The notes under the pieces are model-generated. The model was given only the letters and a program-made list of their open reading frames with translations. It was not told the origin of the DNA and searched no databases. A stretch of 64,000 nt of DNA, taken from NCBI RefSeq assembly GCF_002368415.1, contig NZ_AP018291.1, positions 310,001 to 374,000 of the forward strand. The letters are read 5' to 3'. Made by a program: the position numbers and the translations under genes. This DNA is from Calothrix sp. NIES-4105. GTDB taxonomy: Bacteria; Cyanobacteriota; Cyanobacteriia; Cyanobacteriales; Nostocaceae. Shown here one piece after another: positions 8,328-54,038 of the stretch (position 1 is its first letter; each line of letters opens with the position of its first letter).

Positions 8328-8747
8328 CTAGCAGCAGGGGCGGGCTGGGGCAGGTGTGTCCACTTGGGCAGGGCCAAACGTAGCAGCGTCGTCCAGGACG
8401 GTATAAATTTCCCAAGGAGCGCCATCCGGGTCCGTGACCCATACCTTGTCCTGCACGGCGTAGCAGCAGGTAACCTGCTTCTCAGGGTCTGTTTCTAGAC
8501 CTTTGTCAGTCAGGCGCGTGTCAGCCGCAGCTACTTCAGCCGACGTGTCTACTTCAACACCCAAATGATTCAAAGTGCCAGCCGTTTCAGGCTGCTCAAT
8601 CAGCACCAGCTTCAGCGGTGGCTCAGCCACGGCGAAGTTAGCGTAACCTGTGCGACGTTTCGCTGGCTCAGTCCCTAACAGCTTACTGTAAAAGCCAATG
8701 GCCTCATCAATGTTGCGCACGTTAAGGGCAATTTGAACTCGTGACAT
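8328..8747 (-). CDS. arsI: ArsI/CadI-family vicinal-oxygen-chelate enzyme
   Basis: This 139-aa glyoxalase-fold protein has the ArsI/CadI pattern: VQIALNVRNIDEAIGFYSKL at the N-terminus, NHLGVEV in the middle, vicinal cysteines Cys94-Cys95 (VTCCYA), Lys101 and DPDGAPWEIYTV. ArsI cleaves the carbon-arsenic bond of organoarsenicals; CadI relatives respond to cadmium. Probable metal ligands are Gln5, His61 and Glu113, by comparison with the family. The C-terminus ends PCC, a further thiol pair. I place the start at 8747 because GAGGAT precedes it. It is divergent from the ArsR-type gene at 8835, which probably represses it. The exact substrate, organoarsenical or other metal, is open. Confidence 0.85.
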   Translation of the reverse strand: MSRVQIALNVRNIDEAIGFYSKLLGTEPAKRRTGYANFAVAEPPLKLVLIEQPETAGTLNHLGVEVDTSAEVAAADTRLTDKGLETDPEKQVTCCYAVQDKVWVTDPDGAPWEIYTVLDDAATFGPAQVDTPAPARPCC

Positions 8748-8772
8748 AGTGGTATCCTCGTATATCGACAAT

Positions 8773-8786
8773 AATCAATATTGATT
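8773..8786. promoter_or_regulatory. Palindromic operator AATCAATATTGATT
   Basis: A perfect 14-bp palindrome lies in the divergent gap between the arsI-like and arsR-like genes. Together with the related inverted repeat at 8810-8827 it has the form of an ArsR/SmtB operator. Binding is inferred from context. Confidence 0.65.
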
Positions 8787-8809
8787 TATATGAATATATT
8801 AGCGAAATG

Positions 8810-8827
8810 TATTGATACCTGTCAATA
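8810..8827. promoter_or_regulatory. Second operator-like repeat TATTGA-N6-TCAATA
   Basis: TATTGA and TCAATA form a perfect 6-bp inverted repeat with a 6-base spacer, matching the half sites of the 8773-8786 palindrome. It sits directly before the preferred ATG at 8835, which supports this start and suggests autorepression. Confidence 0.6.
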
Positions 8828-8834
8828 TAGAGGT

Positions 8835-9185
8835 ATGCCAATAGCCAAGTTAATCTCAAAATGTTGCTCTCCACTGCTGTCAGGGTTCATTAAACCTGCT
8901 GAAGCAGAACAGATGGCGTCCTTGTTTCGGGTGCTTGGAGAACCTGCACGCCTGCGATTAATCAGCCTAATTGCTGTTCAGCCAAAGGGTGAAGCCTGTG
9001 TGTGCCAATTGATGGAGCCTTTAGGGTTATCTCAACCCACCGTGAGCCACCATCTCAAAGTTCTCTATGAAATCGGACTACTTGAGCGGGAACAACGCGG
9101 TACCCGGGTTTACTACCGACTTATTCATGAACGAATTGAGGCATTACGGAATGCTTTGGTCATCCCTAACCAAAGTAATAGTTGA
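8835..9185 (+). CDS. arsR: ArsR/SmtB-family metal-sensing repressor
   Basis: This 116-aa winged-helix protein has the ArsR core: LFRVLGEPARLRLISLIA, then LGLSQPTVSHHLKVLYEIGL as the recognition helices and RGTRVYYRL in the wing. ACVCQL, with two cysteines at the metal-sensing helix, is the classic thiol site for As(III), Cd or Pb; an N-terminal KCCSP adds two more cysteines as in CadC-type sensors. Metal binding should release it from the two palindromes upstream and allow expression of the divergent ArsI/CadI gene. In-frame ATG 8790 is an alternative start, but it would place one operator inside the gene. Confidence 0.9.
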   Translation: MPIAKLISKCCSPLLSGFIKPAEAEQMASLFRVLGEPARLRLISLIAVQPKGEACVCQLMEPLGLSQPTVSHHLKVLYEIGLLEREQRGTRVYYRLIHERIEALRNALVIPNQSNS

Positions 9186-21371: not shown

Positions 21372-24300
21372 TTACTTGCCTTTAATAAATTTAATTTCTT
21401 CAGCCGTTAATCCATATAAATGAGCAACTCTATCATCAATTTCTGCTTCCCACTCATATACGTTATCACTTTTAGCATTGAGACAATTTTGAACTAAGGT
21501 TTCAATAATAAGGCTATCTTGCTTTGAGGCTTTAGCAATGGGTATTTGTGTTACATAAGTAGGTTTGAACTCATAAAATCCCCCCTGCTTTGTAGAAGCA
21601 ATTTGGCGAATAAACCAACCTAATAATTTAGAGTTTAGTAATCCAAGCAAATAATTCACATTATCTGTTACACAAATGGAAGTTTTATCATTACCAAAAT
21701 AGCCAGCATAATCTGCTGCATACTCAATGTTTTGAGTAATAGCTGGTATAAAAATTTTGTTTTGATTAAACTCTTGCCAATAAGTAGCAGCGCATCTTTG
21801 CAAAGCATACCACTCATATCTAATTCCTGTTTCTGCTTGATTTCGCGCTGATAACTTAGATTTGAAATTAAGTAAATATTTATAAATAGCTGGATATTGT
21901 TTTTGAAATTGTTTTTCAGCCCGAAGTGAGGCTCCTTCGATTGAATTATCATCATGTAAAGGAAAGTGCCAGGGAATAAACAGCAGCCACAAATCTGGAT
22001 TTTCAACACGCCACCGCTTTACATCCCGACCTCTCAAAAAGGGCTTTAGGACTTCAGCAGATGATTCGTGTTCAGCAATTAACCTATCCCGTGTTATTCT
22101 ATCAATAACAAATGCTTCATTTAAACCTGTTTTAATGCCATAGTAAAATCTACCTTTGACATACTCGCCTAATGGAGTACCTGCATTTCTCAACTTATTC
22201 AATAACCTGAACACTATTGGAGACTCTAACTGCCACCCATCAGCCCCTAACTCTTTCTGAGGCATGTAAAAGCTTTGATTTTTAAACACTGGGGTAAACT
22301 CATCAAGAGTTTTCCCTGCTTGCCAATTCAACACGCGCGCTTGTTGATTATTTGGCTTGTCCTTGCTAACTAAAATAATACTAGGGTATGCGATTGCTTC
22401 AAATACTGGTGTATCTCCAAAATCAATCAGCAACTGCACTTGTGATTTTTCCCCTAAAAATTGACGCAACTTTTCGCCATAGCCTGCACGAAAGTATTTA
22501 TTAGATGTAATATAGTTAAGATAACCCTTAGATTTCAATAGATTAAATCCACGCTCATAGAAGTAAACAAAGAGGTCACCTACCCCAGTATAACACTCAT
22601 ATTCTTCCTTAAGTGCAGGTTTTAATTCTTTAATTTGCTCCTGTCTGACGTAGGGTGGATTCCCAATTAAAATGTCAAATCCTCCCTGCTGTTGAAACAC
22701 CTCATTAAAATGTAAATGCCATTGGAAAAAATTAAGCGCGCGCATCCTGTTTTCTACATCAGTTGCAAACTTATCCAACTCAACTAACTTATCAGCAATC
22801 TCCTTTCGCTCTCTTTCTTGAGCTTTGTTAACTTTCCCTTTCATGAGCTTAATCTTGTTTTCTAGCTCTTGTTGCTTTCCAAACCAAAAAGAACGACGGT
22901 CAGCAATTGCAACCCGAAACACATTTTTCTCAGCTTGTACAATCTTTTCTCGGAGAGCTTTTCGTTCATCAGCATGAGATGTGAAATATTGATGCTGCAA
23001 GTCTACTACAGGTTGTATAGCAGCTTGTATAGGAGTCACAGCCAGTAATGTTTGCTGGTCTTTGGTAGGGTCAGGAATTAACCTTTCCCCGTTAATCGTA
23101 GAAATTAACGAATCCCCACACATTAACTTATAATCAAGATTGGGCAATGGTTCCACATCATCAATTGTAGGAATATCCACTACCATCGATAGCCACATTC
23201 GCAGCTTGGCAATTTCAATAGCTTCGGGCTTAATGTCTACCCCATAAAGGTTATTGGCAATAATATCTCGCTTCCATTCGCTGATAGTTAGACTACCTCG
23301 CTGCACAGTCATGCCTTCCCGGCGCGCGATTACCTGTCGCACAGCAAGAATTACCTGCATCATTCCCAGTGGATAGGCGCCTGATCCAACTGCAGGGTCG
23401 CAAATTGTGACCGATTCTAGGGCTTGCTTTAACTTCTTTGCTTGTTCTTTTGTTAGCAGTTTCTTAAAGTCAGTGTCAGATAAATCACCTTCCTCAGCTT
23501 CTATAAGTTTTTTGATATCGTCTACATCCATGCTTGTAGAATCAGCTAAATAGCGCGCGAGTGACTCTATACACATAAAATGCACGATACCGCGCGGTGT
23601 GTAAAAAGTACCACTTTGTCCGCGCTCGTCAGCTGCTAGCAAGTTTTCAAACACCTTACCAAGCATCTCAGGGTCAACGGCTGCTTCCTCATCTCCTTGA
23701 ATATTTTCAGCAACAGTAAAGTTATGGCCATTGAAAAACTTGATAATACTTTTCTCACCAGATGGGTCAAACAGGGAATTAGGAAGTTGGATTTGTGGTG
23801 GTGTCTCCAATCCAAGAACGTCTTTTACATCAATTCCATAATCTCGGTCAAATAATCCACCGTTAAGATAAGGAATTTTGCCCCACGGCGATTCATGATT
23901 AGGACGTTGCTTGTTTAGCGTCTCAAAAAAGACTGGTTCTAGGAGCTCGCAGTAAAAATCTGTGTCGTCTGGTTCCGAACGCCTAGGATACTGATTTTTG
24001 AGAAAACTACGGTCTCCTCCCAAGAATCCTTTTTTTTGTAAGAAGTAAAGAAACATTACTCGGCCAAGGAAGCGTTGAGAGAATTGGTGTAAGCGACTTT
24101 TATCTTCAAAGTAAGGATGAGGATTATTAGCTTTAATTACCCGCTGTACTTCCTCGAATATCTCTCGATAGCCTCGATAAAACTCTTTGGTAAGCTTTTC
24201 AACATCAAAAGCTTCACACTGAGATTCATACAATTTTTGAGGACTAAGGTCGCGGGCGGCGATTGCCTCTAAACGGTCACGGTCGTAGTTAGTGGGATTA

Positions 24301-24722
24301 ACACGGTCAACTAACAGCTTGCGGATGCCAACCTTTAAATTCATATCAGCATCAAAGGTTTTTCGGGGATTAACAAGCATCATCTGGTTATAGTCTTTTG
24401 TACCTAATAGCAAGAAGTTTGAAGGGCGCCTGCAAAGACTTTGAGCAACTGACCGCATTCGATTACTGGCAGTACTAGGTGATTGCCACTCGTCATAATT
24501 TAGCTGAAATAATAAAACTTGTAGTGACTCGCTACCTTTTCTATGGTCAGCAATCATATATGCATCCCAGATAGCTTCAGCGCTACGCGAGGGCAAGTCT
24601 AATTCATCAATAGCTAACTGTTGAGATGAAGCATTATATCCAAGCTTTTTAAAGAGGAAAGCTATTTTATCTGCTGAATTTATATTACAAATATCATCTA
24701 ACTGTAGTAACCGCGTTGCCAT
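21372..24722 (-). CDS. Type IIG/Eco57I-like adenine DNA methyltransferase
   Basis: At 1116 aa this is a large gamma-type N6-adenine methyltransferase. Visible motifs are SGTFYTPRGIVHFM (upstream of motif I), VTICDPAVGSGAYPLGMM (motif I, near residue 440) and DILIGNPPYVRQEQIK (motif IV, near 685). The N-terminal 350 residues lack an obvious PD-(D/E)xK nuclease, and the C-terminal region (after about 800) resembles target-recognition domains of Eco57I/PglX-type enzymes. It is the first gene of a minus-strand operon with the coiled-coil protein, the membrane protein and the PLD-SNF2 helicase. It probably marks host DNA so that the helicase-nuclease attacks unmodified DNA. Several GCGCGC sites lie inside it. 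Confidence 0.85.
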   Translation of the reverse strand: MATRLLQLDDICNINSADKIAFLFKKLGYNASSQQLAIDELDLPSRSAEAIWDAYMIADHRKGSESLQVLLFQLNYDEWQSPSTASNRMRSVAQSLCRRPSNFLLLGTKDYNQMMLVNPRKTFDADMNLKVGIRKLLVDRVNPTNYDRDRLEAIAARDLSPQKLYESQCEAFDVEKLTKEFYRGYREIFEEVQRVIKANNPHPYFEDKSRLHQFSQRFLGRVMFLYFLQKKGFLGGDRSFLKNQYPRRSEPDDTDFYCELLEPVFFETLNKQRPNHESPWGKIPYLNGGLFDRDYGIDVKDVLGLETPPQIQLPNSLFDPSGEKSIIKFFNGHNFTVAENIQGDEEAAVDPEMLGKVFENLLAADERGQSGTFYTPRGIVHFMCIESLARYLADSTSMDVDDIKKLIEAEEGDLSDTDFKKLLTKEQAKKLKQALESVTICDPAVGSGAYPLGMMQVILAVRQVIARREGMTVQRGSLTISEWKRDIIANNLYGVDIKPEAIEIAKLRMWLSMVVDIPTIDDVEPLPNLDYKLMCGDSLISTINGERLIPDPTKDQQTLLAVTPIQAAIQPVVDLQHQYFTSHADERKALREKIVQAEKNVFRVAIADRRSFWFGKQQELENKIKLMKGKVNKAQERERKEIADKLVELDKFATDVENRMRALNFFQWHLHFNEVFQQQGGFDILIGNPPYVRQEQIKELKPALKEEYECYTGVGDLFVYFYERGFNLLKSKGYLNYITSNKYFRAGYGEKLRQFLGEKSQVQLLIDFGDTPVFEAIAYPSIILVSKDKPNNQQARVLNWQAGKTLDEFTPVFKNQSFYMPQKELGADGWQLESPIVFRLLNKLRNAGTPLGEYVKGRFYYGIKTGLNEAFVIDRITRDRLIAEHESSAEVLKPFLRGRDVKRWRVENPDLWLLFIPWHFPLHDDNSIEGASLRAEKQFQKQYPAIYKYLLNFKSKLSARNQAETGIRYEWYALQRCAATYWQEFNQNKIFIPAITQNIEYAADYAGYFGNDKTSICVTDNVNYLLGLLNSKLLGWFIRQIASTKQGGFYEFKPTYVTQIPIAKASKQDSLIIETLVQNCLNAKSDNVYEWEAEIDDRVAHLYGLTAEEIKFIKGK

Positions 24723-42637: not shown

Positions 42638-43039
42638 ATGACATCAATTAAAATTTACGAGCAAATAGTAGTATTGTTAGCTCAAAAAACAAGTTGGGAG
42701 GTAAAATTACGCTCAAGTAATTCAGATGATTTAGCTATACTTGTTGCAATATGTAATAACGATATTGCTTCTCATGGCTATAATAAAAGTAGCTTTGCAA
42801 AAAAAATTGAATATACAATCAAGTTTATTAGTAAATCAAACCTAGAATGTGTTGACGTAATTGTAATGGAAGACAAGTTTGAACATCATTGCACAAATAT
42901 TATACGTCAATGTTATATTCAACAAACATCAGATATAAATGTGATAGTTGAATATATAATTAAAGAAGTTCCTTTTAGACCGTCTGAACCTCTTCCAAAG
43001 GGAGTATGGATAAGTAAAAGTATGAAATTAGTAAATTAG
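42638..43039 (+). CDS. Hypothetical protein, 133 aa
   Basis: The start at 42638 is supported by AAGAGGTTTAATT. Segments include KIYEQIVVLLAQKTSWEVKL and a Cys/His-bearing middle (EDKFEHHCTNIIRQCYIQ). No recognised family. A hairpin terminator follows at 43116-43154, so this is probably a single-gene transcript. Confidence 0.6.
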   Translation: MTSIKIYEQIVVLLAQKTSWEVKLRSSNSDDLAILVAICNNDIASHGYNKSSFAKKIEYTIKFISKSNLECVDVIVMEDKFEHHCTNIIRQCYIQQTSDINVIVEYIIKEVPFRPSEPLPKGVWISKSMKLVN

Positions 43040-43115
43040 CCAGCGATTTACTATAGTTTTGTTTTTTACGTTCGTCGGATAGTCATACTTAAAGCCTAAC
43101 GCACGAAACAAACTT

Positions 43116-43154
43116 AAAAGCTCTGCCGTTTCCCACCCATAAAGCAGAGCTTTT
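43116..43154. terminator. Hairpin terminator
   Basis: AAAAGCTCTGC pairs with GCAGAGCTTTT (11 bp) around a 17-base loop; T-rich tail follows. It can terminate the 133-aa gene (plus) and, on the other strand, the conserved gene at 43228. Confidence 0.7.
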
Positions 43155-43227
43155 AACCCCGCAGTCTACCTTAACGATAAAATTAAAAAATACGCTTCAA
43201 ATTACAGGCGCCTCCCCAACACCACCT

Positions 43228-44281
43228 TCAATTACAATCTGCCTTGTTGCGTTTCTGTGGCATAGCAAACTTACTACCATCTGTAGTAGCTTCAAGCTTC
43301 GGCGCCGCTTCCCCTTTACGCAGTGAGAGTGCTTCTGCTTTCATCTTCTTACTAGCTTTAAGAAACTTCGGTGCCTCTGCTATTGGCATTTGAGCAAGTG
43401 ACTCAAAACCAAATGCATTTTTGTAAGGAAGGAACTTAGCTATTATAGAAACAAAGTATGGTCGTCCCTGCTCTTCCTTCGGTACCTTGGGATTAAATCT
43501 AAACGGGGGTACAAGTGCATCTTTCCAAAATAAAGGAAGATGGCTAGCTTTCATGAACCTAACTCGTTTACTAACATCTGATTTTTTAACAAATTCTAAT
43601 CTTTCTTCTGTGAAGTTTTTGAAGATAGAAATACAAGGAACTTGGCAGACTGGGATAAATTGCCATATGCCACTAAGTTTAAATTGAAAGTCTTTTAATT
43701 CTTGACACATCCCTTCATTGTTACCTGTATCAAATCCTACAAGCTGGAATCCGAATAGATGGGGTTTGTCTTTTCCTGGGAAGTGAAGTACTTTGGGATA
43801 GACTATTAAACGCCGATGATTATTCCCATCATTTGCTATACACATTTTTAACGCATCAAAAGTTTTTAACTAGGGTGTTGACTTTGTTGAAAATTGGGCG
43901 ATTTTTGGTACTTTTGTTCGTGGCGTTTAATTTCTCGTTAAAACCTTACTTAAAACAAGGTTTCAGCCCGAAGTGACTGTACACGTTTTTTGCATGAACG
44001 AAATCCCAAAAAAGGCACAGAGTCAACAGCCTAGTTTTTAACCCTTTGTTAGTGGCAATGTAAGACAATGGGTATTTATTACCACTAACTGTAACTGTGG
44101 CAGACTTTTTATCCTCTGAGAATTCCACTACACCGGGAATTATACCTACTGCTGTAAAAAATAATTCTGAACTCGAACTCGAGGAGTCTTTTTCTGTTGG
44201 TGTACTAGGGGGGGTAACTTCTATATTCTTTTTAGGTTTGATGATTGGTGGTAGCACCCGTTTTTCTTGATTATCTGACAT
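43228..44281 (-). pseudogene. Conserved cyanobacterial protein split by a MITE
   Basis: From ATG 44281 the frame reads SSSELFFTAVGIIPGVVEFS, VSGNKYPLSYIATNKGLKT and is then interrupted by the MITE at 43871-44033. On the other side it continues in the same frame as FDALKMCIANDGNNHRRLIV, LFGFQLVGFDTGN, LSGIWQFIPVCQVPCISIFK, MKASHLPLFWKDALVPPFRF. Removing the MITE and one copy of the 9-bp duplication restores one continuous protein of about 290 aa. This resembles a widespread, uncharacterised cyanobacterial family with that ending FLKASKK. Function unknown. A GGCGCC cluster lies at its 3' end. Confidence 0.8.
43871..44033. mobile_element. 163-bp MITE with 9-bp target duplication
   Basis: The ends are TAGGGTGTTGACTTTGT and, inverted, TAGGCTGTTGACTCTGT (15 of 17 matching). 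The duplication GTTTTTAAC stands on both sides (43862-43870 and 44034-44042). The interior has no gene. The perfect duplication and the intact flanking frame mean the insertion is recent. Confidence 0.85.
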
Positions 44282-44323
44282 AGAATTTTTTTTATTAATT
44301 ATATAACAGCGACTAGGCGCCAT

Positions 44324-45349
44324 TTTTACCTACCTGCTAGCCCTTTACAGGGTTTCAGGCTAATAACTAACCTGATGACTCTGCTTGAGAGCTATTTAGT
44401 AAAAATAAATACATATATGATAAAACCCTAAGTGTTATTACTTTATATTGTATTTTTTGCAACTTTTCACTTTTCCCCCGTATCTGACCGACCACTGTAC
44501 TAGAAAGGCGTAACATAAAATTACCATCCTTTGTTGAATACAATTTTTACACAGCCTAACTTTATAGTCGCAACAGACCTAAGAATGTGACAATTTGGGT
44601 AATCGCCAATCCGACGCGCTGTCCTCTTACACGTTGTAAAGTTTGGAGAGAAGAGAAAAAATTAAAGCCTCGAAAATATATATAGTTCATATGTATAAAA
44701 ATGCGAGTACCACCAATATCAAAAGCCACATTTAGATTATTGTAAGATTTATTACAATGTATTGGCTGCGGTAAGTAATCACGCTACTTCCGCACGAAGC
44801 TAATCATAGCCATATACAAACAGCAATTCAAGTCTTAAATGTAACTTATATTCAAGATAAATCACCGTGGTATGGGCACTGCTTTAGCTGAATATCTGAA
44901 TTATTTAGTATTAAAATACTATGAAAAAATGCTTGTAAAACGGTGAAAGTATTGATAGCAGTGTATTACAGCACTTTTTGTGTTGTCGCGAGTGTAGTTG
45001 ATCTAATATTGATTTTTTTACTGGAATGCACATGTTACAAGCTTTTCAGACGTTTGATGGCGGCTGGTGTCAGCTTCGCCAGTTTGTTCAAACACATGCA
45101 TCATTGGTGTGCGACTCCAGTCGCACTCCGATATAGTACTTTTGTAGAAGGGAGATAGGTTTGAGGCGCCGAATCTCTCAAAAAAGAGAAAAGAATCTCG
45201 TTTACAAACATCTTCGCGCAATGCCTGTTAGATTTTCTAAAATGTTGGGAACTATATACTCAGATACATACATAGCTTACAAGTGGGAGCAATGACTATA
45301 CTTTTGTAAAAGTGTATCAGTTCTGTTTAAAATAGGAAGCAAAAATTTT
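44324..45349. other. 1-kb gap before the His-Xaa-Ser cluster
   Basis: No convincing gene. A 71-codon ORF at 44943-45158 with a hydrophobic start and no binding site seems accidental. The stretch 44560-44900 is AT-rich with no repeats noticed. One GGCGCC lies at 45165, the last before 3.7 kb without any. The promoter of the hxs operon should be in 45170-45349. Confidence 0.5.
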
Positions 45350-45634
45350 ATGGAAAATATTAGTACTAATCAAGCTGTCAAAACAACACAGGCATTAAAA
45401 GCAGATATTGTTTCAATTGAAATTGAAAATCCAGTTATGCTTACGGAGTTAATCGGTTTTATTCGTTGTAAGATAAATTTAAAAAATGGTCAAAGTAGTC
45501 AAGCCGTGGCTAACTTTTTTTTAACAAAAGAAGGCACATTAAAGCCAAAAGAAGTCTCAATAGAAGAAGCGGAAACATTAGCTATTACGAAAGCATTGGC
45601 ATATATAGGGTACAATTACGAAATAGATATTTAA
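45350..45634 (+). CDS. Small protein leading the hxs operon
   Basis: This 94-aa protein (IVSIEIENPVMLTELIGFIR, CKINLKNGQSSQAVANFFLT, VSIEEAETLAITKALAYIGY) has no recognised family. AGGAAG upstream is a fair ribosome binding site. It lies 70 bases before hxsD on the same strand. It has no His-x-Ser repeats and no signal peptide, so it is unlikely to be the modified substrate. A chaperone, delivery or regulatory role would fit, but is unproven. Confidence 0.6.
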   Translation: MENISTNQAVKTTQALKADIVSIEIENPVMLTELIGFIRCKINLKNGQSSQAVANFFLTKEGTLKPKEVSIEEAETLAITKALAYIGYNYEIDI

Positions 45635-45704
45635 TCAATACAACTATTGAAAGAACAACTTATTTATTTGATAAAAATAATTGTCAAATTGGAGAAAAAA
45701 ATTA

Positions 45705-46100
45705 ATGCTAAGTCAAGATTTTAGTACAGAGAAATTCAACTTTGTCTTTCAAGGAGAAGATTATTTTGGCGTACATATTAGTACAGAATGTTACAGCAAA
45801 ACAATCATCTTTAAAACAGCACATAAATTTACAGATAGATGTTATGTTCATGTTGAGCCAAATGCTGAAAATAGATTTTTAGTTAGCTTTAAGTGTAAAA
45901 ATCAGAAACATAGTGTACAAAAGTTAGCACAAGAGTTTTGTAACGAACTTCTTGAACAAGAGTTACGTTTTATAATTGCTCAAGAAACTGAAGGTGTCAG
46001 AAATTTAATAATTGCACATGCTTTTTCTAAAACTTCGCTTATTGAACCAGACTTGGAAACAGCAGATTATCTTGAAGACGCACATCATATTGGAAAGTAA
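45705..46100 (+). CDS. hxsD: HxsD of the His-Xaa-Ser system
   Basis: From ATG 45705 (GGAGAAAAAAATTA upstream) the protein is 131 aa. Its pattern FQGEDYFGVHISTECYSKTI, HKFTDRCYVHVE and LAQEFCNELLEQELRFIIAQ matches the small HxsD protein that always accompanies the HxsB/HxsC radical SAM pair. It is the likely peptide-binding or adaptor subunit. Followed after 52 bases by hxsB. Family by pattern and strong context. Confidence 0.75.
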   Translation: MLSQDFSTEKFNFVFQGEDYFGVHISTECYSKTIIFKTAHKFTDRCYVHVEPNAENRFLVSFKCKNQKHSVQKLAQEFCNELLEQELRFIIAQETEGVRNLIIAHAFSKTSLIEPDLETADYLEDAHHIGK

Positions 46101-46152
46101 AATTAGCTAGTATTTAATTCGATAATCATATTTACAAAACTTAAATTACCAA

Positions 46153-47604
46153 ATGATTTCTAAATTTAAAACCATAGACTTTTATCAAAGTAAAAGTGCT
46201 TATAACCTACTACCTTATCGATTTTTATCACTTGACTCTCAACGTTATATAGTTACAAACTTAGCTGGCGAATATATTATTTTATCTTTAGATGAACTCC
46301 AGCGTTTTACTCGGAAGCAACTAACATACGATGATTCGATTTATAATGAACTTAAATCAAAACACTTTCTTTATGATGATGAATCCGATATTGCATTAGA
46401 ACTTTTAGCAGTTAAGTACCGTACAAAACAAAGTTATGTAGCTAACTTTACTGGACTTCATATTTTTGTAGTAACACTTCGGTGCGATCACTCTTGCCCC
46501 TACTGTCAGGTATCGCGTCAGTCAGAAGATAAAATGTCTTTTGATATGACTCGAGAAATAGCAGATAAAGGTATAGAAATTTTATTTAAAAGTCCTTCAT
46601 CCACATTAAAAGTTGAATTTCAAGGAGGTGAATCGCTATTAAACTTTGAACTAATCAAGTATATTGTAGAGCAAGTTGAAACTAAAAATATAACTTTTGG
46701 CAAGTACATTAAATTCGTAATTGCTACAAATTTATCACCGTTAAATAATGAAATTTTAGAGTATTGCTTTCACCGTAATATTTATATTTCTACATCACTT
46801 GATGGTTCAGAAAAATTACACAATACAAATCGACCTAAGCAGGGAAACGATAGTTACGCTAAGTCAGTTGCTGGTATTGAGCGAGTCAGACAAAAACTTG
46901 GACAAAATTCAGTTTCTGCACTGATGACGACTACTCATGAGAGTTTAAAGTATCCTCGTGAAATTATCGATGAATATTTGCGATTGGGATTTAAAAGTAT
47001 TTTCCTTCGTTCTATCAGCCCTTATGGATTTGCAGTTAAAACTGTTAATTCCACAGGATATGACATGAATGAGTGGCTTGATTTTTATAAAGAAGCTTTG
47101 GCGTACATTATAGAACTAAACCAGGCTGGAGTAAAATTTGTTGAAGAGTATACAGCGTTGGTTCTTAAAAAAATATTGACTCCTTATCCTACAGGATATG
47201 TAGATTTACAATCACCTGCTGGTATTGGAATATCGGTAATAATTTTTAACTATAATGGCGAGGTTTACGCCTCAGATGAAGCTAGAATGCTTGCCGAAAT
47301 GAACGATAAAACATTTAAATTGGGTAATTTGCTGACTGATTCGTATGAACAAATTTTTACTAGTGACATCCTTATTGAAACTATTTACGAAACAATGCTA
47401 GAAGGTGTGCCAAGATGTACTGATTGTGCTTTTATTCCATATTGTGGTAGTGACCCAGTATATCACCATGCTACACAAAATGATAAAGTTGGATATAAAT
47501 TAACAAGTGATTTTTGTCACAAAAACATGTCTATTATCAAGCATATTATTAAACTTATGGAAACACAACCAGATATTAAAACTATTTTGGAAAGTTGGTT
47601 ATAG
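46153..47604 (+). CDS. hxsB: HxsB radical SAM/SPASM maturase
   Basis: The 483-aa protein has the radical SAM cluster Cys111-x3-Cys115-x2-Cys118 (LRCDHSCPYCQVSR), GGES as the SAM glycine motif, and SPASM cysteines including Cys422, Cys425 and Cys431 (CTDCAFIPYCG). HxsB-type enzymes are the main maturase of the His-Xaa-Ser system. The N-terminal 100 residues, with YRFLSLDSQRYIVTNLAGEY, form a domain before the radical SAM core that may handle the precursor. Operon position after hxsD supports it. The modification made on the repeats is not established. Confidence 0.88.
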   Translation: MISKFKTIDFYQSKSAYNLLPYRFLSLDSQRYIVTNLAGEYIILSLDELQRFTRKQLTYDDSIYNELKSKHFLYDDESDIALELLAVKYRTKQSYVANFTGLHIFVVTLRCDHSCPYCQVSRQSEDKMSFDMTREIADKGIEILFKSPSSTLKVEFQGGESLLNFELIKYIVEQVETKNITFGKYIKFVIATNLSPLNNEILEYCFHRNIYISTSLDGSEKLHNTNRPKQGNDSYAKSVAGIERVRQKLGQNSVSALMTTTHESLKYPREIIDEYLRLGFKSIFLRSISPYGFAVKTVNSTGYDMNEWLDFYKEALAYIIELNQAGVKFVEEYTALVLKKILTPYPTGYVDLQSPAGIGISVIIFNYNGEVYASDEARMLAEMNDKTFKLGNLLTDSYEQIFTSDILIETIYETMLEGVPRCTDCAFIPYCGSDPVYHHATQNDKVGYKLTSDFCHKNMSIIKHIIKLMETQPDIKTILESWL

Positions 47605-47623
47605 CCGATAGGAGAATAAATAT

Positions 47624-48826
47624 ATGTTAAAATTACATAGTTCAATTAAAACTAAATTTAATAAAGAAACTTTCATTACTAAACTAACTGATAGTACTTT
47701 ATTGCCATTGCCACTACGTAGCTTCAATTCACTACTAGTTGATGCAACTAATTTAGAAAATTTAAATAGTCAAGCCACTCAGGAGTTTGAATGCTTAGTT
47801 ATAAAAAATAGTCAAAATATTGATTTTGATTACAGTAACATTCATTATCATAATTTAATTATTCTCCCGTCTGAATTAAACTACCTTGACTCAGGAGATA
47901 TTATTAAAGTTTCACCTCAATCAGGAAAAATTTCTACTCTCTATCGAAAAAACTCTAACTACAACGTCATTTTCATGACGGAGCGCTGCAACAGTAACTG
48001 CTTGATGTGTTCTCAGCCGCCCCGAAATATTGATGATAGTTACTTAGTTGAGGACTATTTAAAAGCAATTCCCTTGATGTCGCCAGAAACATTAGAGATA
48101 GGAATAACTGGTGGTGAACCTACTTTATTAAAAAATGATTTTTTAAAAATAGTCACAGCATGTCGAGATTATTTGCCTAGTACAGCTTTACATGTACTTT
48201 CTAATGGCAAGCTTTTTAGTTACCTTCAGTACGCTTGTTCGTTAGCACAAATTCAACACCCAGATTTGATGATTGGAATTCCTCTGTACTCTGATATTGC
48301 AAGCATTCACAATTATGTCGTCCAGGCAGAGGATGCCTTTGACCAAACGATACGAGGAATTTTAAATCTTGAACGTACTAATGTACGAGTAGAAATAAGG
48401 GTAGTAGTTCATCAGCAAACGTATCAACGTCTGGAGCAGATAGCTCGCTTTATTGCCCGCAACCTTCCATTTGTCAGTCACATCACTTTTATGGGGTTAG
48501 AAATAATGGGTCATACTAGAGCAAACCTCGAACAGCTATGGATTGACCCAGTAGATTATCAGGATAAGTTGGAAGAAGCTGTTTGCTATTTAAATAGACG
48601 GGGAATGAATGTATCTATTTACAATCATCAGCTTTGCGTATTGCGAAAATCATTATGGCCATTCGCGAAAAAATCTATTTCCGATTGGAAGAATGAATAT
48701 TTTCCTGAATGTGATGCATGTACCGTCAAAGATAAATGTGGAGGTTTTTTCTCTTCATCGTCTTTACGTTTTAGCAATCACATAAATCCTATAGTTTCTA
48801 AATATTTATTGCCTAATGGTATTTAG
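47624..48826 (+). CDS. hxsC: HxsC radical SAM protein
   Basis: The 400-aa protein carries Cys122-x3-Cys126-x2-Cys129 (TERCNSNCLMCSQPP), the SAM motif GITGGEP and a short C-terminal Cys cluster (ECDACTVKDKCGGFF) next to a Ser-rich stretch. It is the second radical SAM enzyme of the system. GGAGAATAAATAT provides a good ribosome binding site, 20 bases after the hxsB stop, so the two are in one transcript. It probably works with HxsB on HxsA. Confidence 0.88.
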   Translation: MLKLHSSIKTKFNKETFITKLTDSTLLPLPLRSFNSLLVDATNLENLNSQATQEFECLVIKNSQNIDFDYSNIHYHNLIILPSELNYLDSGDIIKVSPQSGKISTLYRKNSNYNVIFMTERCNSNCLMCSQPPRNIDDSYLVEDYLKAIPLMSPETLEIGITGGEPTLLKNDFLKIVTACRDYLPSTALHVLSNGKLFSYLQYACSLAQIQHPDLMIGIPLYSDIASIHNYVVQAEDAFDQTIRGILNLERTNVRVEIRVVVHQQTYQRLEQIARFIARNLPFVSHITFMGLEIMGHTRANLEQLWIDPVDYQDKLEEAVCYLNRRGMNVSIYNHQLCVLRKSLWPFAKKSISDWKNEYFPECDACTVKDKCGGFFSSSSLRFSNHINPIVSKYLLPNGI

Positions 48827-48862
48827 CAGGCAATTACGATTTGATTAGCTAATAGCCTATGT

Positions 48863-48878
48863 GGCGCCGACTTACTTA
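48863..48878. repeat. GGCGCCGACTTACTTA 16-mer, copy 2
   Basis: Identical to 687-702. Here it is intergenic, just after hxsC. Confidence 0.7.
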
Positions 48879-48987
48879 ATATCATCATATTTACCAATTG
48901 AAAGGCTAGCTAAATGAATACGAGTTAACAAGATTGTGTAAGGGTGACTTTTAACAAATACATTAATACAATCGATTTAAATAGTTT

Positions 48988-49716
48988 ATGAAAAAGTTTT
49001 TAGGAAAATTATTAACCGTAGGGATAGCTGTAGAAGCCTTGCTCCAAACTACTTCTACTTTGCCTGTAAATGCAGAAATTGCTGAAAAGATAGCAGTGGC
49101 ACAAGAAGTTGCAAATCGTTCAGATGCGTTTGATGCATCAATAGAACCATTGGTACTTACTAAGCACGAAAACACAGGTGTAATTGTAGCCGGACATGGT
49201 TCGCATAGCTCACATAGCTCACATAGCTCCCATAGTTCACACAGCTCCCATAGCTCGCATTACTCTGGAAGTGGCGGATATTCCGGGGGTGGGTATTCAG
49301 GAGGTGGGTATTTCGACAGCGGATACACTTCATCACCTACACTTACTGAACAACAGTTAATTAATTCATTACCTAAGTTAGAATCATTACTACAGAAACC
49401 AGGAATTTCAATTACTGTAGTTGACGTTAAAATTAATACTAAAACTTTTAATAAACTTGGTTTATTGATTAACGGGCAATCATATATACCAACCAAACTA
49501 TTAAAGTTTATACCTACGAAAAATAGTTTTCAAAATGATTCGATATTAACTTTGTATTCTGCACAATCACTAGGTATTCAAATGATAACATACAAAGGTA
49601 TTATTTTTATTGAAACAGCAGGACTGAAAAAGTTATACAACGACGTTTCAGTTAGTTGGGACAATACTCAAAAAGTAGTAATTTTGAAAACAGATGTTGC
49701 ATTGCTGGAACGCTAA
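48988..49716 (+). CDS. hxsA: HxsA His-Xaa-Ser repeat substrate with extra domain
   Basis: The 242-aa protein starts with a Sec-type signal peptide (FLGKLLTVGIAVEALLQTTS, probable cut after residue 29, VNA). Residues 70-93 are eight consecutive His-Xaa-Ser triplets, HGS, six HSS and HYS, followed by a Gly/Tyr-rich spacer (GSGGYSGGGYSGGGYF). Then comes a beta domain (INGQSYIPTKLL, TYKGIIFIETAGLKKL, SVSWDNTQKVVILKT) similar to the copper amine oxidase N-terminal-like module. The repeats are the presumed target of HxsB/C. Export by Sec with the C-terminal domain as an anchor or surface partner is inferred. This is a larger, exported variant of the substrate than usual. Confidence 0.85.
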   Translation: MKKFLGKLLTVGIAVEALLQTTSTLPVNAEIAEKIAVAQEVANRSDAFDASIEPLVLTKHENTGVIVAGHGSHSSHSSHSSHSSHSSHSSHYSGSGGYSGGGYSGGGYFDSGYTSSPTLTEQQLINSLPKLESLLQKPGISITVVDVKINTKTFNKLGLLINGQSYIPTKLLKFIPTKNSFQNDSILTLYSAQSLGIQMITYKGIIFIETAGLKKLYNDVSVSWDNTQKVVILKTDVALLER

Positions 49717-49804
49717 TGGCATTACACAAGAACCGCAATGCAATGAACAACCTTCGTGCCTTACTATCATATGCTTCTATAAACTTGTTTTTACCCCTAA
49801 TACC

Positions 49805-49998
49805 GGCTCTTCCGTACTTAGCGTGCTAAATCTGTTGGTAAATTAGCTTGGAATTATTGCTATGCTTATCTTACAGCCATAATTGCTTTTATAAAAATCA
49901 AATTACTGAAATTTCAAGTATAAGTACCTGTAAGGCTTGATTATAAAGGAAAATTATCGATTTTAATTAAAAATTAGCACGCTATGTACGGAAGAACC
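49805..49998. mobile_element. 194-bp MITE with ISL3-like ends
   Basis: Begins GGCTCTTCCGTACTTAGCGT and ends with the inverse of a near-identical sequence (GCACGCTATGTACGGAAGAACC). The same ends, with one base changed, bound the ISL3 element at 54055-55392, so it is probably a non-autonomous derivative. The truncated methyltransferase at 49999 starts immediately after it. No target duplication was seen. Confidence 0.65.
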
Positions 49999-50853
49999 AT
50001 AAAATTACTAAAAAATTCTATGACCGTTTTAAAAAAGAACATGAAAAATTTCTTAAATTCATAGAAAGTAAAACTTTAACCGACAAAGAATGGTATGCAT
50101 CATTGATGCTCAACCGTCTAATGTTTACATACTTTATCCAAAAGAAAGGGTTTTTGGATGGTAATCAACACTATCTAGGCACCCATTTGAGAAAATGCCA
50201 AGAAAATAAAGAAAACAATGGTAAAGATAAATCACAAACATTCTACCGCTCTTTTCTCTTGAAGCTATTTCATCAAGGTTTGGGTAAACTGGAACGTCAA
50301 AAAGAATTGAGACAATTATTGGGTAAAGTTCCTTACCTCAATGGTGGTTTATTTGAAATTCACCCCCTCGAAATCCTCAATACTGACATCCACATTCCCG
50401 ACGAAGCATTTGATAAAATCTTTGGCTTTTTCGATGAATATCAATGGCATTTAGATGACCGTCCTTTAAAAGACGACAAAGAAATTAATCCAGATGTTCT
50501 TGGTTACATTTTTGAGAAGTACACCAACCAAAAACAAATGGGCGCCTATTACACCAAAGAAGATATCACCGAATACATTAGCAAAAACTGCATTATTCCT
50601 TTTATTTTTGAATCAGTGGAGAATTACTTATGCAATCCCTCTTCCAAACAAACGGTATAGCTTGGAAATTGTTACGCGATACCCCCGACCGCTATATTTA
50701 TGAAGCTGTCAGCAAGGGAGTAGACATTCCCTTGCCAAAGGATATTGAAGCTGGCATCGACGATGTTTCCAAACGCGATAGCTGGAATAAAGCCGCAGCA
50801 AATGATTACGCCTTACCAACGGAGACTTGGCGCGATAACAATAACCATTCGTA
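49999..50853 (+). pseudogene. PglX/type IIG-like methyltransferase N-terminal remnant
   Basis: Starting at the MITE edge, the frame reads KFYDRFKKEHEKFLKFIESK, MLNRLMFTYFIQKKGFLDGN, VPYLNGGLFEIHPLE, NPDVLGYIFEKYTNQKQMGA and YYTKEDITEYISKNCIIPFI. These are the typical N-terminal conserved segments of BREX PglX and type IIG methyltransferases. A shift near 50650 separates the next part (LLRDTPDRYIYEAVSKGVDI and DDVSKRDSWNKAA). No NPPY or SAM motif remains. This is a second, dead copy of such an enzyme, different in sequence from the one at 21372-24722. Confidence 0.75.
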
Positions 50854-51120
50854 GATACCATCTGTCTCAGTTTACTAATTGGAATGGTGTAAAAGCACTT
50901 AACAATCACACATAAAAAGTAATCACAATCAATCCGGCACCGTAATCGGCACCGGTTTTTTATTGAATTTTTACACGATAGTGGGCATATTGCAACGCAC
51001 GCTTACTTTTTTGACGGTAAAACTCCGTAGCCAGAGTCGCCACTCAAACAAGCGGGTAAGTTAAGACGTAACCTAATTGATTTTTTGGATTATTTTACAT
51101 CAATTCAGGGGATAACTTCA

Positions 51121-51231
51121 ATGGCATGTCAAGTTGGGAACAACAAAATTGTTCTCGCTTTTACGGGTGGAAACATAGAAGTAAGCCTGGATATGCCCAG
51201 GCATGTTGTAATATTAGCTATTGAATTATGA
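51121..51231 (+). CDS. 36-aa protein, first of a tiny operon
   Basis: The ORF reads MACQVGNNKIVLAFTGGNIE and ends VVILAIEL, with a good ribosome binding site (AGGGGATAACTTCA). Its TGA overlaps the ATG of the next gene. Not recognised. Confidence 0.45.
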   Translation: MACQVGNNKIVLAFTGGNIEVSLDMPRHVVILAIEL

Positions 51232-51425
51232 AACAGAATGACAGTTTCCAAAGACCAAGTATCCGCAAATCATTGCTATGGCGGGTACGACAGATGTGCA
51301 AATTCTGGCAGCCAATAATCGCTTTTGTCCTTACCCTGACGGGGTTTGTCATTAGATATCACACAGATATAATGAATTTCTTTACCCATCTGCGTAATTT
51401 TTTACTTGGTCTTTGGGGAGGATAA
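51228..51425 (+). CDS. 65-aa membrane protein, second of a tiny operon
   Basis: The protein has a basic N-terminus (RPSIRKSLLWRVRQMCKFWQ), one transmembrane helix (PIIAFVLTLTGFVI) and a second amphipathic part (MNFFTHLRNFLLGLWGG). The ATGA overlap with the 36-aa ORF indicates coupling. A small hydrophobic partner of this kind could be a toxin or a membrane tether. Function unknown. Confidence 0.5.
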   Translation: MKQNDSFQRPSIRKSLLWRVRQMCKFWQPIIAFVLTLTGFVIRYHTDIMNFFTHLRNFLLGLWGG

Positions 51426-51629
51426 ATGTGGCAATGGAGGAATTGGCACCTGCTTGGGAAATCCTCCTTACTGCCAATTTCCCATGCAAATTCACAAATT
51501 TAATACATGGCGACTTATAGGGCGTATCAAGTTGAAAAAGTTTGTTAAAACGAAAAATTCAGCAATGGGTTATTGAAATCGTTTTAATATTGTAAAGACG
51601 AAGAACGCCACAACAACGCGCGCCAACTT

Positions 51630-51818
51630 TTACACTTGTTTTAACCAATTTCGCCCAGCGCTTTCCGCTGCTTGCGCTGAGTAATAAGTCTTGCGCTCAC
51701 CATATATACTCCCAAGAGGACTTATTACCCTAAACTGCCAACTGTGGGCGCTTGTATAAAAAACTATTAATACATAACTGTTAATGCTGATAACCTGATC
51801 AATTATGGTTTTAGTCAT
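51630..51818 (-). CDS. Small hypothetical protein, 62 aa
   Basis: From ATG 51818 (MTKTIIDQVISINSYVLIVF) the protein continues SWQFRVISPLGSIYGERKTY and YSAQAAESAGRNWLKQV. The pattern WQFRVxxPxG is a recurring small-domain theme in cyanobacterial proteins, but I cannot name it. Plausible but short. Confidence 0.4.
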   Translation of the reverse strand: MTKTIIDQVISINSYVLIVFYTSAHSWQFRVISPLGSIYGERKTYYSAQAAESAGRNWLKQV

Positions 51819-51929
51819 GCATCGTAAATTAAAACACATGTATGTACTAGATTAGCGTGTTTAAAAGATTTATTACCTTTACTACCAGCTTACGAGTCTT
51901 CATGCTCGCAGTTGTTTGGGCGCCTGCGC

Positions 51930-52283
51930 TTAATGAGAATCTTTCAATTCCAACTGATAAATCCTCATAGACGGATGTTCGTTCATCATTCGCCAGTAGA
52001 AACCATGTGGTGGTGATTGTACTTTTCCACCACAACGATACAGGAAAACTGGTTCCGAATTACGTATAAGCTTTTTTACTAGCTTTTCTACACCAGTGTC
52101 AGGTTTGGCATCGTTGTACCAAATAACATGCGAATTTCCAGAATAGCCAGCAGCCATTAAGCTTGCAAACAGCCATTCCATTGTTGATTGAATTTGCTGT
52201 GGTTCGGCGCCACTGCTTATCTGTCCGTAACTTTCAATTGTTGAATGTGCTGGTTTGGGTTTAAATAATTCAAGGAATCTCAT
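51930..52283 (-). CDS. Hypothetical protein, 117 aa
   Basis: Contains MEWLFASLMAAGYSGNSHVI, GVEKLVKKLIRNSEPVFLYR and YWRMMNEHPSMRIYQLEL. No recognised domain. Downstream of the SH3 lipoprotein on the same strand but separated by 66 bases. One GGCGCC in the coding sequence, one just after the stop. Confidence 0.55.
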   Translation of the reverse strand: MRFLELFKPKPAHSTIESYGQISSGAEPQQIQSTMEWLFASLMAAGYSGNSHVIWYNDAKPDTGVEKLVKKLIRNSEPVFLYRCGGKVQSPPHGFYWRMMNEHPSMRIYQLELKDSH

Positions 52284-52349
52284 ATATATAAGTTATTTAC
52301 TTATATTAGAGTTCCCCAAATCAATACCAAATTTAGTTTCAACGACAAA

Positions 52350-53057
52350 TTACTGCTCACCAACATAACAAGCAGGCGCCGAACCGCCTGGTCGTGAGTA
52401 TGCTGAACGACCACCACATCTTCGACCACGCCTATCTGTATCATACGGGCATTCACAACTGCCCGATATCGACTCTCGAATAGGCTGGTAGCTTACTATT
52501 TGTGGAGTTTGCAAAGTTGCTGGAATTTCTGAAATAGGTGCCGACGATTCGCTTTCTAATGCAACAAACTTGTTGTGTACCCAGCCTCTCGCTCCTGATT
52601 GTACAAACCTGACTCGATACCAAGTGGCGCCGTTCTCATCTTGCTTTTGATCAAATACTTCAACTTTATCTCCTGATAGCCCATAGTGGCGAGCATATGT
52701 TTTAACCGAGGCGCCATCCCGAACATTGATACGTTCGCCAGATTGTTCGGAAACAAGTGTTGCCTGTTGAGTTGATGTGATATTTGGCTCGACAGCTTCA
52801 GCAGTTGGCGCCAATTTTGGAGTAGATTCAATCGCTACTTCGGTTGTTGGCGCCTCCGTGGGTATAAGTTTGGTAGCTTCGGTAGTTGGCGCCAATTTTG
52901 GAGTAGATTTGGTTACTTTGATAGCTGGCGCCTCAGTTTGAGTAGGAGTTGAAGATGGTGTAACTGCTTCTTGAGTAATGGTTGGTGTTGTTGTCGTTTG
53001 TGGGAACGAACAGCCCGACGCTATTAAAAATAGGGCACAAAATATATACTTTTCCAT
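52350..53057 (-). CDS. SH3-domain lipoprotein with a Cys-rich C-terminal module
   Basis: The 235-aa protein has a lipobox (FLIASGC), a low-complexity Thr/Pro/Glu spacer and an SH3_3 domain (INVRDGASVKTYARHY, WYRVRFVQSGARGWVHNKFV). It ends with CECPYDTDRRGRRCGGRSAY plus SRPGGSAPACY. That module of about 31 residues recurs at the end of the nuclease at 53331-54038, transcribed away from it. It is probably anchored in a membrane and binds peptidoglycan or another periplasmic ligand. Six exact GGCGCC sites, four in the repetitive spacer, lie in this 0.7-kb gene. Confidence 0.8.
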   Translation of the reverse strand: MEKYIFCALFLIASGCSFPQTTTTPTITQEAVTPSSTPTQTEAPAIKVTKSTPKLAPTTEATKLIPTEAPTTEVAIESTPKLAPTAEAVEPNITSTQQATLVSEQSGERINVRDGASVKTYARHYGLSGDKVEVFDQKQDENGATWYRVRFVQSGARGWVHNKFVALESESSAPISEIPATLQTPQIVSYQPIRESISGSCECPYDTDRRGRRCGGRSAYSRPGGSAPACYVGEQ

Positions 53058-53330: not shown

Positions 53331-54038
53331 ATGAAAAATATTGTCAAACGTTTTGCTATTATATCTTGCATAATCCTTGGATTTATTTTAGTCGTCACCA
53401 CTTCGGATTTAGTACAAGCTAAGAATAATCAGTTGCAACAAGCCGTCGTGACTAAAATTCAAGATGGCGATACCTTATTAGCAAAGATTGGAAATCGTAT
53501 TGAAAAAATCCGATTGTCTTGCATTGACACACCCGAAATTGGGCAAGCACCATTCGATAAGCAAGCTACTCAAAGGTTATCTCAACTTGCCCCGGTAGGT
53601 CAAACTATTAATGTCAAGGCAAGCCCACAAGGAAGAGATAAAAGTGGGCGCCTGGTTGCGGAAATATATCAAGGTGATACAAGTGTAAATTTACAATTGG
53701 TTAGAGAAGGTCACGCTGTTTTATTCTGTAAATATCTTAGTAACTGTGCTGGTTCTCGAAATTCATTTTTGAGTGCAGAACGAGCAGCTAGAAGTGAAGG
53801 TTTAGGTGTTTGGAATCCTTCTAATTCCTGGAAGAATGCTAGAGAATCAAAGCCATGTAGTGCTAATACTGCATCAACTACTACTCCTCCTACTCCTATG
53901 CCAATTCGTGCAGCAAGGCAAGGACAAGGATGTGAATGCCCCTACGATTTAGATAGAAGAGGTGGTAGCTGTGGTGGCCGTTCTTCTTACTCTAGACCCG
54001 GAGGCGCCAGTCCCGTTTGCTATACCACAGATAGGTAA
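53331..54038 (+). CDS. Secreted thermonuclease with the same Cys-rich module
   Basis: The 235-aa protein has a signal peptide (AIISCIILGFILVVTTSDLV), then a staphylococcal nuclease-like domain: KIQDGDTLLAKIGNRIEKIR, LSCIDTPEIGQ, RDKSGRLVAEIYQGDTSVNL and LVREGHAVLFCKYLSNC. Conserved Arg, Asp, Glu and Arg residues are present, so it should be an active exported nuclease. The tail CECPYDLDRRGGSCGGRSSY plus SRPGGASPVCY is almost the same as in the SH3 lipoprotein. A binding site is not obvious before ATG 53331. Nutrient scavenging from extracellular DNA or a defence role are both possible. Confidence 0.85.
   Translation: MKNIVKRFAIISCIILGFILVVTTSDLVQAKNNQLQQAVVTKIQDGDTLLAKIGNRIEKIRLSCIDTPEIGQAPFDKQATQRLSQLAPVGQTINVKASPQGRDKSGRLVAEIYQGDTSVNLQLVREGHAVLFCKYLSNCAGSRNSFLSAERAARSEGLGVWNPSNSWKNARESKPCSANTASTTTPPTPMPIRAARQGQGCECPYDLDRRGGSCGGRSSYSRPGGASPVCYTTDR

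Follow-up and report, generated by a model that had tools for sequence, protein, structure and literature searches.

A His-Xaa-Ser system variant in Calothrix sp. NIES-4105 with an HxsA tail homologous to the middle domain of the peptidoglycan hydrolase TftA

What is made of a protein that carries eight consecutive His-Xaa-Ser triplets, and where in the cell would it end up? These questions are raised by a locus at positions 45350-49716 of the window analyzed here, a 64,000-nucleotide stretch of the cyanobacterium Calothrix sp. NIES-4105 (contig NZ_AP018291.1, positions 310,001 to 374,000). Its five open reading frames (ORFs), all on the + strand, are a 94-aa ORF followed by hxsD, hxsB, hxsC and hxsA, the last four being genes of the His-Xaa-Ser (Hxs) system, which Haft and Basu reportedly found by comparative genomics in 2011. 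The product and role of that system were not found described in the open-access literature searched, the body of work to which our later literature searches also refer. Haft and Basu 2011 is cited in the accessible part of PMC9062424. An earlier interpretation of the window from its letters (the sequence-only reading) had seen a complete system in one operon, opened by an extra 94-aa protein, and in it an enlarged, exported HxsA with a copper-amine-oxidase-N-like tail. Here we report two results that bear on it. First, family models and alignments identify the locus as a real, intact variant of the His-Xaa-Ser system, with its novelty in the tail domain of HxsA. Second, the copper reading of that tail is corrected, its best relative being the middle domain of a cyanobacterial peptidoglycan hydrolase.

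The set of maturation proteins is complete, as had been claimed, each of the three passing the cut-off of its NCBIfam equivalog model: HxsD with 79.3 bits against TIGR03976 (cut-off 50), HxsB with 622.8 bits against TIGR03978 (cut-off 370) and HxsC with 401.5 bits against TIGR03977 (cut-off 267.9). The family assignment of the two radical S-adenosylmethionine (SAM) enzymes, on which the sequence-only reading had staked its proposal, was thus confirmed by hidden Markov models. In alignments of 30 HxsB and 30 HxsC proteins, the window's included, every cluster cysteine is present in 30 of 30 rows, namely the CX3CX2C residues C111/115/118 and C422/425/431/455 of HxsB, and C122/126/129 and C338/363/366/372 of HxsC. 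The CxxxCxxC and SPASM clusters proposed earlier correspond to seven conserved cysteines per enzyme; the Pfam SPASM model itself is matched by HxsB only, at 16.6 bits and under its cut-off of 21.5. The other models nearest to HxsB, among the best 25 of 51, are by score those of cross-linking or oxidizing SPASM maturases (PapB 116 bits, CcpM 89, YhhB 85, SCIFF 83 and sulfatase maturase 83). An AlphaFold2 model of HxsD made from 4 sequences has an alpha/beta fold (mean predicted local distance difference test score, pLDDT, 75.1) with weak matches to ACT-like folds. Two other candidates were rejected: HxsD as a winged helix of the kind that recognizes ribosomally synthesized and post-translationally modified peptides (RiPPs), of which no recognition element was seen by eye among the 50 fold matches listed, and a defence system, for which PADLOC offers nothing beyond weak matches of the radical SAM enzymes to viperin (pVip) and PDC-S50.

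The eight consecutive triplets of HxsA are borne out by the sequence and read HGS-(HSS)6-HYS, a run whose rough chance per protein lies between 1e-16 (own composition) and 4e-21 (assuming 2% His and 7% Ser). What places HxsA in the His-Xaa-Ser system is that it is an adjacent, apparently exported protein with such an array, its signal peptide being likely as read by eye. Public models describe it incompletely: TIGR03979 matches the N-terminal half only, over positions 8-87 of its 190, and with 34.5 bits stays under its cut-off of 121.65; both the HxsA2 model NF038296 (23.9 bits, cut-off 48) and the HxsA4 model (27.5 bits, cut-off 55) fall short, 149 residues lying downstream of the array. The HxsA3 model found no further HxS protein in the genome at E<=0.1, a negative that says little because the window's own HxsA was missed as well. 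Across 183 triplets of 29 arrays, in which His and Ser are fixed by definition and the middle residue is variable, the latter is S in 95, R in 35, Y in 20, A in 13, G in 7, T in 4, Q in 3, and N, V and C in 2 each.

By its alignment, the tail of HxsA is a homologue of TftA's middle domain; the accessible part of PMC10710843 describes TftA as a hormogonium tapered-terminus morphoprotein and a cyanobacterial amidase-glucosaminidase. Against the TftA model NF050040 HxsA has a whole-protein E of 2.1e-10 and scores 39.9 bits, under the cut-off of 500, the middle stretch alone being matched. Against 29 TftA ORFs the tail gives phmmer E values from 3.8e-11 to 6.6e-7 at 23-36% identity, and a search with it found a match in 27 of 41 genomes (the own genome and 40 relatives). 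All 29 homologues other than HxsA match the TftA model at E<=0.001, the first at 818 bits, over the cut-off; Amidase_3 is present in 29 of the 29 and Glucosaminidase in 28, and one TftA lies in the same genome at C1:7559075. In the 41 cyanobacterial genomes, then, the TftA-type domain is found, apart from HxsA, in this peptidoglycan hydrolase only. A peptide-pattern search of viral contigs returned no relatives of the tail.

The copper-amine-oxidase-N-like domain seen earlier in this tail was not borne out when it was searched against Cu_amine_oxidN1 (PF07833) and a structure database. Pfam returns nothing for HxsA at E<=1, hence neither PF07833 nor PG_binding_1; PF07833 is touched weakly by 5 of the 29 TftA homologues (best E 0.16, under cut-off), and searches of the PDB with the tail gave a best E of 1.2, or 0.39 in the profile version. 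Aligned by hhalign with seven stalk domains, the tail and 27 of the 29 TftA middle domains (L069 and L070 being omitted as near copies of L068) reach 35% probability over 20 columns, the common stretch being a motif around V-x-W-D, and a profile comparison with one stalk-domain sequence likewise gave a short common motif only. Among the relatives PF07833 was found in 1 of 41 genomes; a search of the phylum at E<=1e-12 found it in 0 of 373, but its controls matched nowhere either. A distant relation between the tail and Cu_amine_oxidN1 is possible; as an assignment of the tail, the Pfam, PDB and profile searches argue against it.

This result bears on the proposal that HxsA is a surface metal-binding protein, whose modified His array would bind copper or some other metal in a storage, sensing or redox role. 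Eight regularly spaced His residues in a probably exported protein are what such a role would call for, and in the lanthipeptide noursin a His cross-link is needed to bind copper (PMC10206099, in part). The tail, however, is not Cu_amine_oxidN1 by any search run, and with neither His nor Cys among its 149 residues it offers no usual copper ligands. Inspection of the ORFs at 43000-52500 by eye revealed no gene for metal transport; about 36 kb from the hxs genes (8328-9185, likewise by eye) there are an ArsR-like and a CadI-like ORF. Some relatives do have metal-related neighbours, a chromate transporter and superoxide dismutase in L037 and a siderophore receptor in L095, but these do not recur among the loci viewed, and metal binding seems unlikely to us.

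Comparison with other hxs loci shows what is new here. We gathered 29 (21 from plasmids, 1 from a phage contig and 7 from genomes), so that the survey of architectures is mostly plasmid-based, a peptide-pattern search having contributed 3 of the relatives. Arrays were listed for 28 of them, without L075, which nearly duplicates L036; 27 of these hold 28 arrays, and no HxS ORF was found in L094. In 16 of the 28 the protein ends within 15 residues of the array, and in the other 12 it continues into a longer tail. Our most useful result is the pattern in these long forms: PG_binding_1 scores above its gathering threshold in 10 of the 12 other long tails of the sample, and the window's HxsA ends in a different domain, known otherwise from a wall hydrolase, so that the variant adds a second, unrelated wall-associated tail to the same type of array. 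The HxsA was rightly called enlarged, although its length is not in itself new; what is new is which domain is there. The layout with this long, apparently exported HxsA is without counterpart in the loci compared, which supports that part of the sequence-only reading.

The PG_binding_1 part is implied by public annotation, since the HxsA model TIGR03979 spans it, and no discussion of it was found in the literature. Six of nine PG_binding_1 forms scanned pass the cut-off of this model, while L083 (72.5), L087 (96.4) and L085 (109.3) miss it. In the ten PG_binding_1 operons hxsA comes last in 8 and first in 2 (L040 and L083), and in all 7 hxsA-last operons measured (L087 not among them) hxsC and hxsA overlap by 4 bp, as against a gap of 161 bp in the window. 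Two tandem hxsA genes were seen in the Eremiobacterota locus L002 (4604-5663), one long with an unassigned tail and one short with nine triplets. In Agrobacterium, hxsB-C-A is followed by one unassigned gene and then by a gene for an SH3-domain protein, a possible wall binder (L090:6397-7056).

A classical RiPP, in which the array would be excised from HxsA to act as a diffusible toxin, signal or antibiotic with the tail as a carrier only, can be weighed against the same survey. At E<=1e-40, 391 of 72,556 plasmid records carry an HxsB relative (316 are from Klebsiella and 315 are typed as conjugative), and 2 of 50,697 phage records do so at E<=1e-20, a distribution like that of many bacteriocin clusters; peptidase genes also lie near some relatives (S8 in L095, zincin-like in L093). 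The peptidases, an NlpC/P60 protein (L083) and transporters (L037) nevertheless vary by locus, and beside the hxs genes of the window no transporter, protease or immunity gene was recognized by eye. Nor is there a common cutting layout across the 28 other arrays, because some end shortly after the array and others in long tails, and we hold release of the array to be distinctly unlikely. More generally, the neighbour genes of the relatives (peptidases, transporters, the siderophore receptor and nucleases) differ by locus and do not settle the role. The two phage records are Leptospira phage KF114877.1 (80102-81553) and the gut phage contig MT837156.1 (L092), whose HxS protein has two arrays; a peptide-pattern search of viral contigs found no HxsB relatives.

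The wall-associated tail was probably acquired separately in the window's HxsA, as its HxsB groups with short-HxsA2 systems and a PG_binding_1 clade is rejected. In an HxsB tree of 30 rows, where the label longHxsA covers the window and the PG_binding_1 forms and leaves L002 and L092 unlabelled, the window groups with 14 systems that lack a PG_binding_1 HxsA (support 95/94); 12 of these have a short array only, L002 has a short and a long one, and in L094 no array was found. Approximately unbiased (AU) tests, for which L086, L092, L089, L090, L091, L096 and L075 were dropped, rejected a grouping of the window with 5 of the 10 PG_binding_1 systems, the other five being omitted as long branches (p 0.0005), and weakly rejected one with the three proteobacterial systems among those five tested (p 0.038); a grouping with Nostoc C057 was not rejected (p 0.31). 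The 161-bp gap before hxsA, set against the 4-bp overlap in PG_binding_1 operons, agrees with a separate acquisition.

Such an origin could also mean little, if the locus were a decaying island copy in which hxsA was replaced by an inconsequential chance fusion. By eye, the surroundings include mobile genes and a broken restriction-modification-like gene, hxsA is separated by its gap and lacks an obvious ribosome-binding site, and HxsB exceeds its cut-off in just 2 of 217 genomes of the family, the own one included. Decay is countered by five intact ORFs, by the retention of all 14 cluster cysteines, by eight perfect triplets with varied Ser codons and by a tail that retains the invariant columns of the TftA domain, and we consider such a fusion quite improbable. 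In a sample of the phylum, HxsB exceeds its cut-off in 4 of 386 genomes (own included), and the other three carriers lie outside its class. The second carrier in the family, G502, has an HxsB nearly the same as that of Nostoc sp. C057 plasmid p057_G. An incomplete radical SAM match to HxsB, interrupted by three stops, lies at G000:C1:2790928-2791626, near a ParA-like gene (C1:2788293).

Taken together, these observations suggest the following mechanism. HxsA would be made with a Sec signal, and before export HxsD may help to present the segment in front of the array. In the cytoplasm HxsB and HxsC would then act on the eight triplets, as might be expected where radical SAM peptide maturases adjoin a repeat in which His and Ser are constant while the residue between them varies. 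The modified HxsA would be exported by way of its putative signal peptide, and the TftA-type domain may keep the modified array at peptidoglycan, as PG_binding_1 is presumed to do in most of the other long HxsA proteins. That 10 of the 12 end in PG_binding_1, and the window's in a domain known otherwise from a wall hydrolase, points to a wall-held modified peptide. To this reading, in which the array is modified and the protein is exported and held at the wall, jointly and whatever the chemistry, we assign a rough probability of 45%. It yields a concrete, testable prediction, that modified arrays are held at peptidoglycan.

As to the chemistry, the likeliest single candidate is a three-residue ring in each triplet, from His C2 to the Cbeta of the Ser two residues on, as in triceptides. 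For HaaB and YhhB, rings that join His C2 to the Cbeta of the second residue after it are reported, and for MscB a ring from Phe to Ser Cbeta (PMC11002830, in part), which makes a His-Ser ring chemically reasonable. Ser oxidation is chemically reasonable as well. The ring is still doubtful, with Ser oxidation and other cross-links as its rivals.

Oxidation of the triplet Ser by HxsB, HxsC or both, for example to formylglycine, would supply aldehydes that could fix HxsA to amines or proteins of the wall, and the fixed Ser of the array and the wall-type tails would suit it. The anaerobic sulfatase maturase model matches HxsB at E 2.5e-23, level with YhhB, and precedes YhhB in 4 of 5 other HxsB proteins (L036, L042, L076 and L077; neither is listed for L086). 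A sulfatase maturase modifies a single Ser or Cys in each substrate. That single-site action, and a strict His left without explanation, speak against Ser oxidation, as does PapB, which ranks second in 5 of 5 other HxsB proteins and outscores the sulfatase maturase in all six scanned. It is, in our judgment, likewise an unlikely account.

Several points weigh against the wall-held array or its parts. HxsB scores 85 bits against the YhhB model (E 3.7e-24), far under the cut-off of 445, and in the five other HxsB proteins YhhB ranks 9th, 10th, 13th, 13th and unlisted (E<=1e-15), preceded by models of thioether formers and, for three of the five, by that of the sulfatase maturase; this low rank weakens the ring. 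The HxsD model has no firm structural match, the best being to RNA polymerase subunits of the Rpb11/Rpo11 family (E 3e-3, TM 0.46), and type III secretion chaperones, which are peptide binders, match it only at E 0.06 and worse. Peptidoglycan binding by the TftA middle domain is putative and unproven: the accessible part of PMC10710843 describes this stretch as a mainly beta-sheet linker of unknown function between two peptidoglycan-hydrolase domains, and the tail of HxsA, modelled alone by AlphaFold2, reaches a pLDDT of only 32.6. By Pfam, the long tails of L002 and of L092, the gut phage contig, contain no wall domain. The grouping in the HxsB tree has 93/90 support once the long branches (the seven rows named above) are left out and is not fully secure, and the HxsC tree does not resolve the surroundings of the window. 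Finally, modification in any Hxs system was not found described in the literature.

A broader generalization is conceivable, that HxsA proteins are wall-tethered structural peptides, tandem arrays of His-Ser cyclophanes (eight here) set on peptidoglycan by exchangeable anchors; as a whole we think it rather unlikely. If it were true, one and the same modified array would have been joined in evolution to two or more unrelated wall-associated domains (PG_binding_1 and the middle domain of TftA), and the Hxs product would be a part of the envelope and not a released antibiotic.

The 94-aa protein, which the sequence-only reading had taken as an extra component opening the operon, did not hold up as part of the system. 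It has no relative in the 29 other hxs loci, in 72,556 plasmids or in 40 relatives of the genome, no NCBIfam family at E<=0.1, and only chance-level matches in Pfam and PHROGs; a peptide-pattern search of viral contigs found no relative either. Its one match among 388 genomes of the order sample (own included) is partial, 57 residues at E 3.3e-5 in G696, a genome without an HxsB over cut-off, where it sits among apparently unrelated genes (by eye). Sequence searches thus leave it best regarded as a neighbour.

The claim of one operon stands in part (Table 1). The five ORFs share a strand, with gaps of 70, 52, 19 and 161 bases in order, but hxsA is not established as a member, because of the last of these gaps and because no obvious ribosome-binding site lies in the 25 bases upstream of it; hxsB likewise has none. 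Promoter-like sites number 18 against 24.0 expected, a count uninformative on operon structure.

Table 1. The hxs locus of the window and the parts of its HxsA.
Feature	Position	Strand	Remark
94-aa ORF (X94)	45350..45634	+	Directly precedes hxsD; probably no conserved part of the hxs system
hxsD	45705..46100	+	131 aa from ATG; TTG at 45681 a possible start; TIGR03976
hxsB, radical SAM/SPASM maturase	46153..47604	+	483 aa; TIGR03978
hxsC, radical SAM maturase	47624..48826	+	400 aa; TIGR03977
hxsA variant, probably exported substrate	48988..49716	+	242 aa; partial TIGR03979 match and HxS array
Putative Sec signal peptide of HxsA (MKKF...PVNA)	48988..49074	+	By eye
HxsA pre-array segment EPLVLTKHENTGVIVAG	49144..49194	+	By-eye likeness to the pre-array segment of many other HxsA (29 arrays listed)
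Eight consecutive His-Xaa-Ser triplets, presumed modification sites	49195..49266	+	HxsA residues 70-93
Gly/Ser/Tyr-rich linker of HxsA	49267..49347	+	Sequence
HxsA C-terminal domain, homologue of TftA middle domain	49408..49701	+	Residues 141-238; NF050040 positions 198-281

The window lies on a contig of 394,733 bases (C2) in a genome of 12.04 Mb and 8 contigs, the largest share being C1 with 11.06 Mb. One ParA-type gene on C2 (35497-36027) gives weak support for a plasmid, weak because the genome has 17 such genes in all, most of them on C1. Just after hxsA, at 50103-51000, fragmented ORFs look by eye like part of the restriction-modification-like protein encoded at 21372-24722, an apparent remnant gene. 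Farther on lies a divergent pair, 52350-53057 (-) and 53331-54038 (+), of apparently exported SH3-type and SNase nuclease proteins that share a near-identical C-terminal Cys motif, CECPYDxDRRGxxCGGRSxYSRPGG; the SNase matches the PADLOC model C3a212 at E 4.3e-14. This SNase gene lies about 4.5 kb after hxsC, paralleling nuclease-like genes near hxsC in four other loci (L039:7633-8349, L036:9027-9563, L003:8671-9051 and L038:8376-9335), whose SNase-Excalibur and SNase matches are over cut-off and whose HNH and GmrSD_C matches are below it.

Four known systems place the variant. The long-HxsA form, for example on Aeromonas salmonicida plasmid 4 (L042), has like the window HxsD, HxsB and HxsC, an hxsA in last place, and an HxsA made of a signal-peptide-like start, an HxS array, a linker and a C-terminal domain. 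Its tail is PG_binding_1, whereas the window has the TftA middle domain, a 161-bp gap, an HxsB that groups elsewhere and a leading 94-aa ORF. The short HxsA2 form (NF038296) on Nostoc sp. C057 plasmid p057_G (L036) is cyanobacterial, falls in the same HxsB tree group and is the nearest HxsB by tree path; together with its near copy G502 it also has the highest identity to the window's HxsB (58-59%). Its substrate is a short protein with the array at the end, encoded by the first gene, while that of the window is long and encoded by the last. TftA contributes the middle domain that aligns with the C-terminal part of HxsA, which has neither the amidase_3 nor the glucosaminidase domain. The triceptide maturases XncB, OscB, MscB, HaaB and YhhB (PMC11002830, in part) combine a SPASM radical SAM enzyme with a residue-x-residue triplet, as may be the case for Hxs; the HxsB of the window, at 85 of the 445 bits required, is not a member of the YhhB family, and the Hxs system has two radical SAM enzymes together with HxsD.

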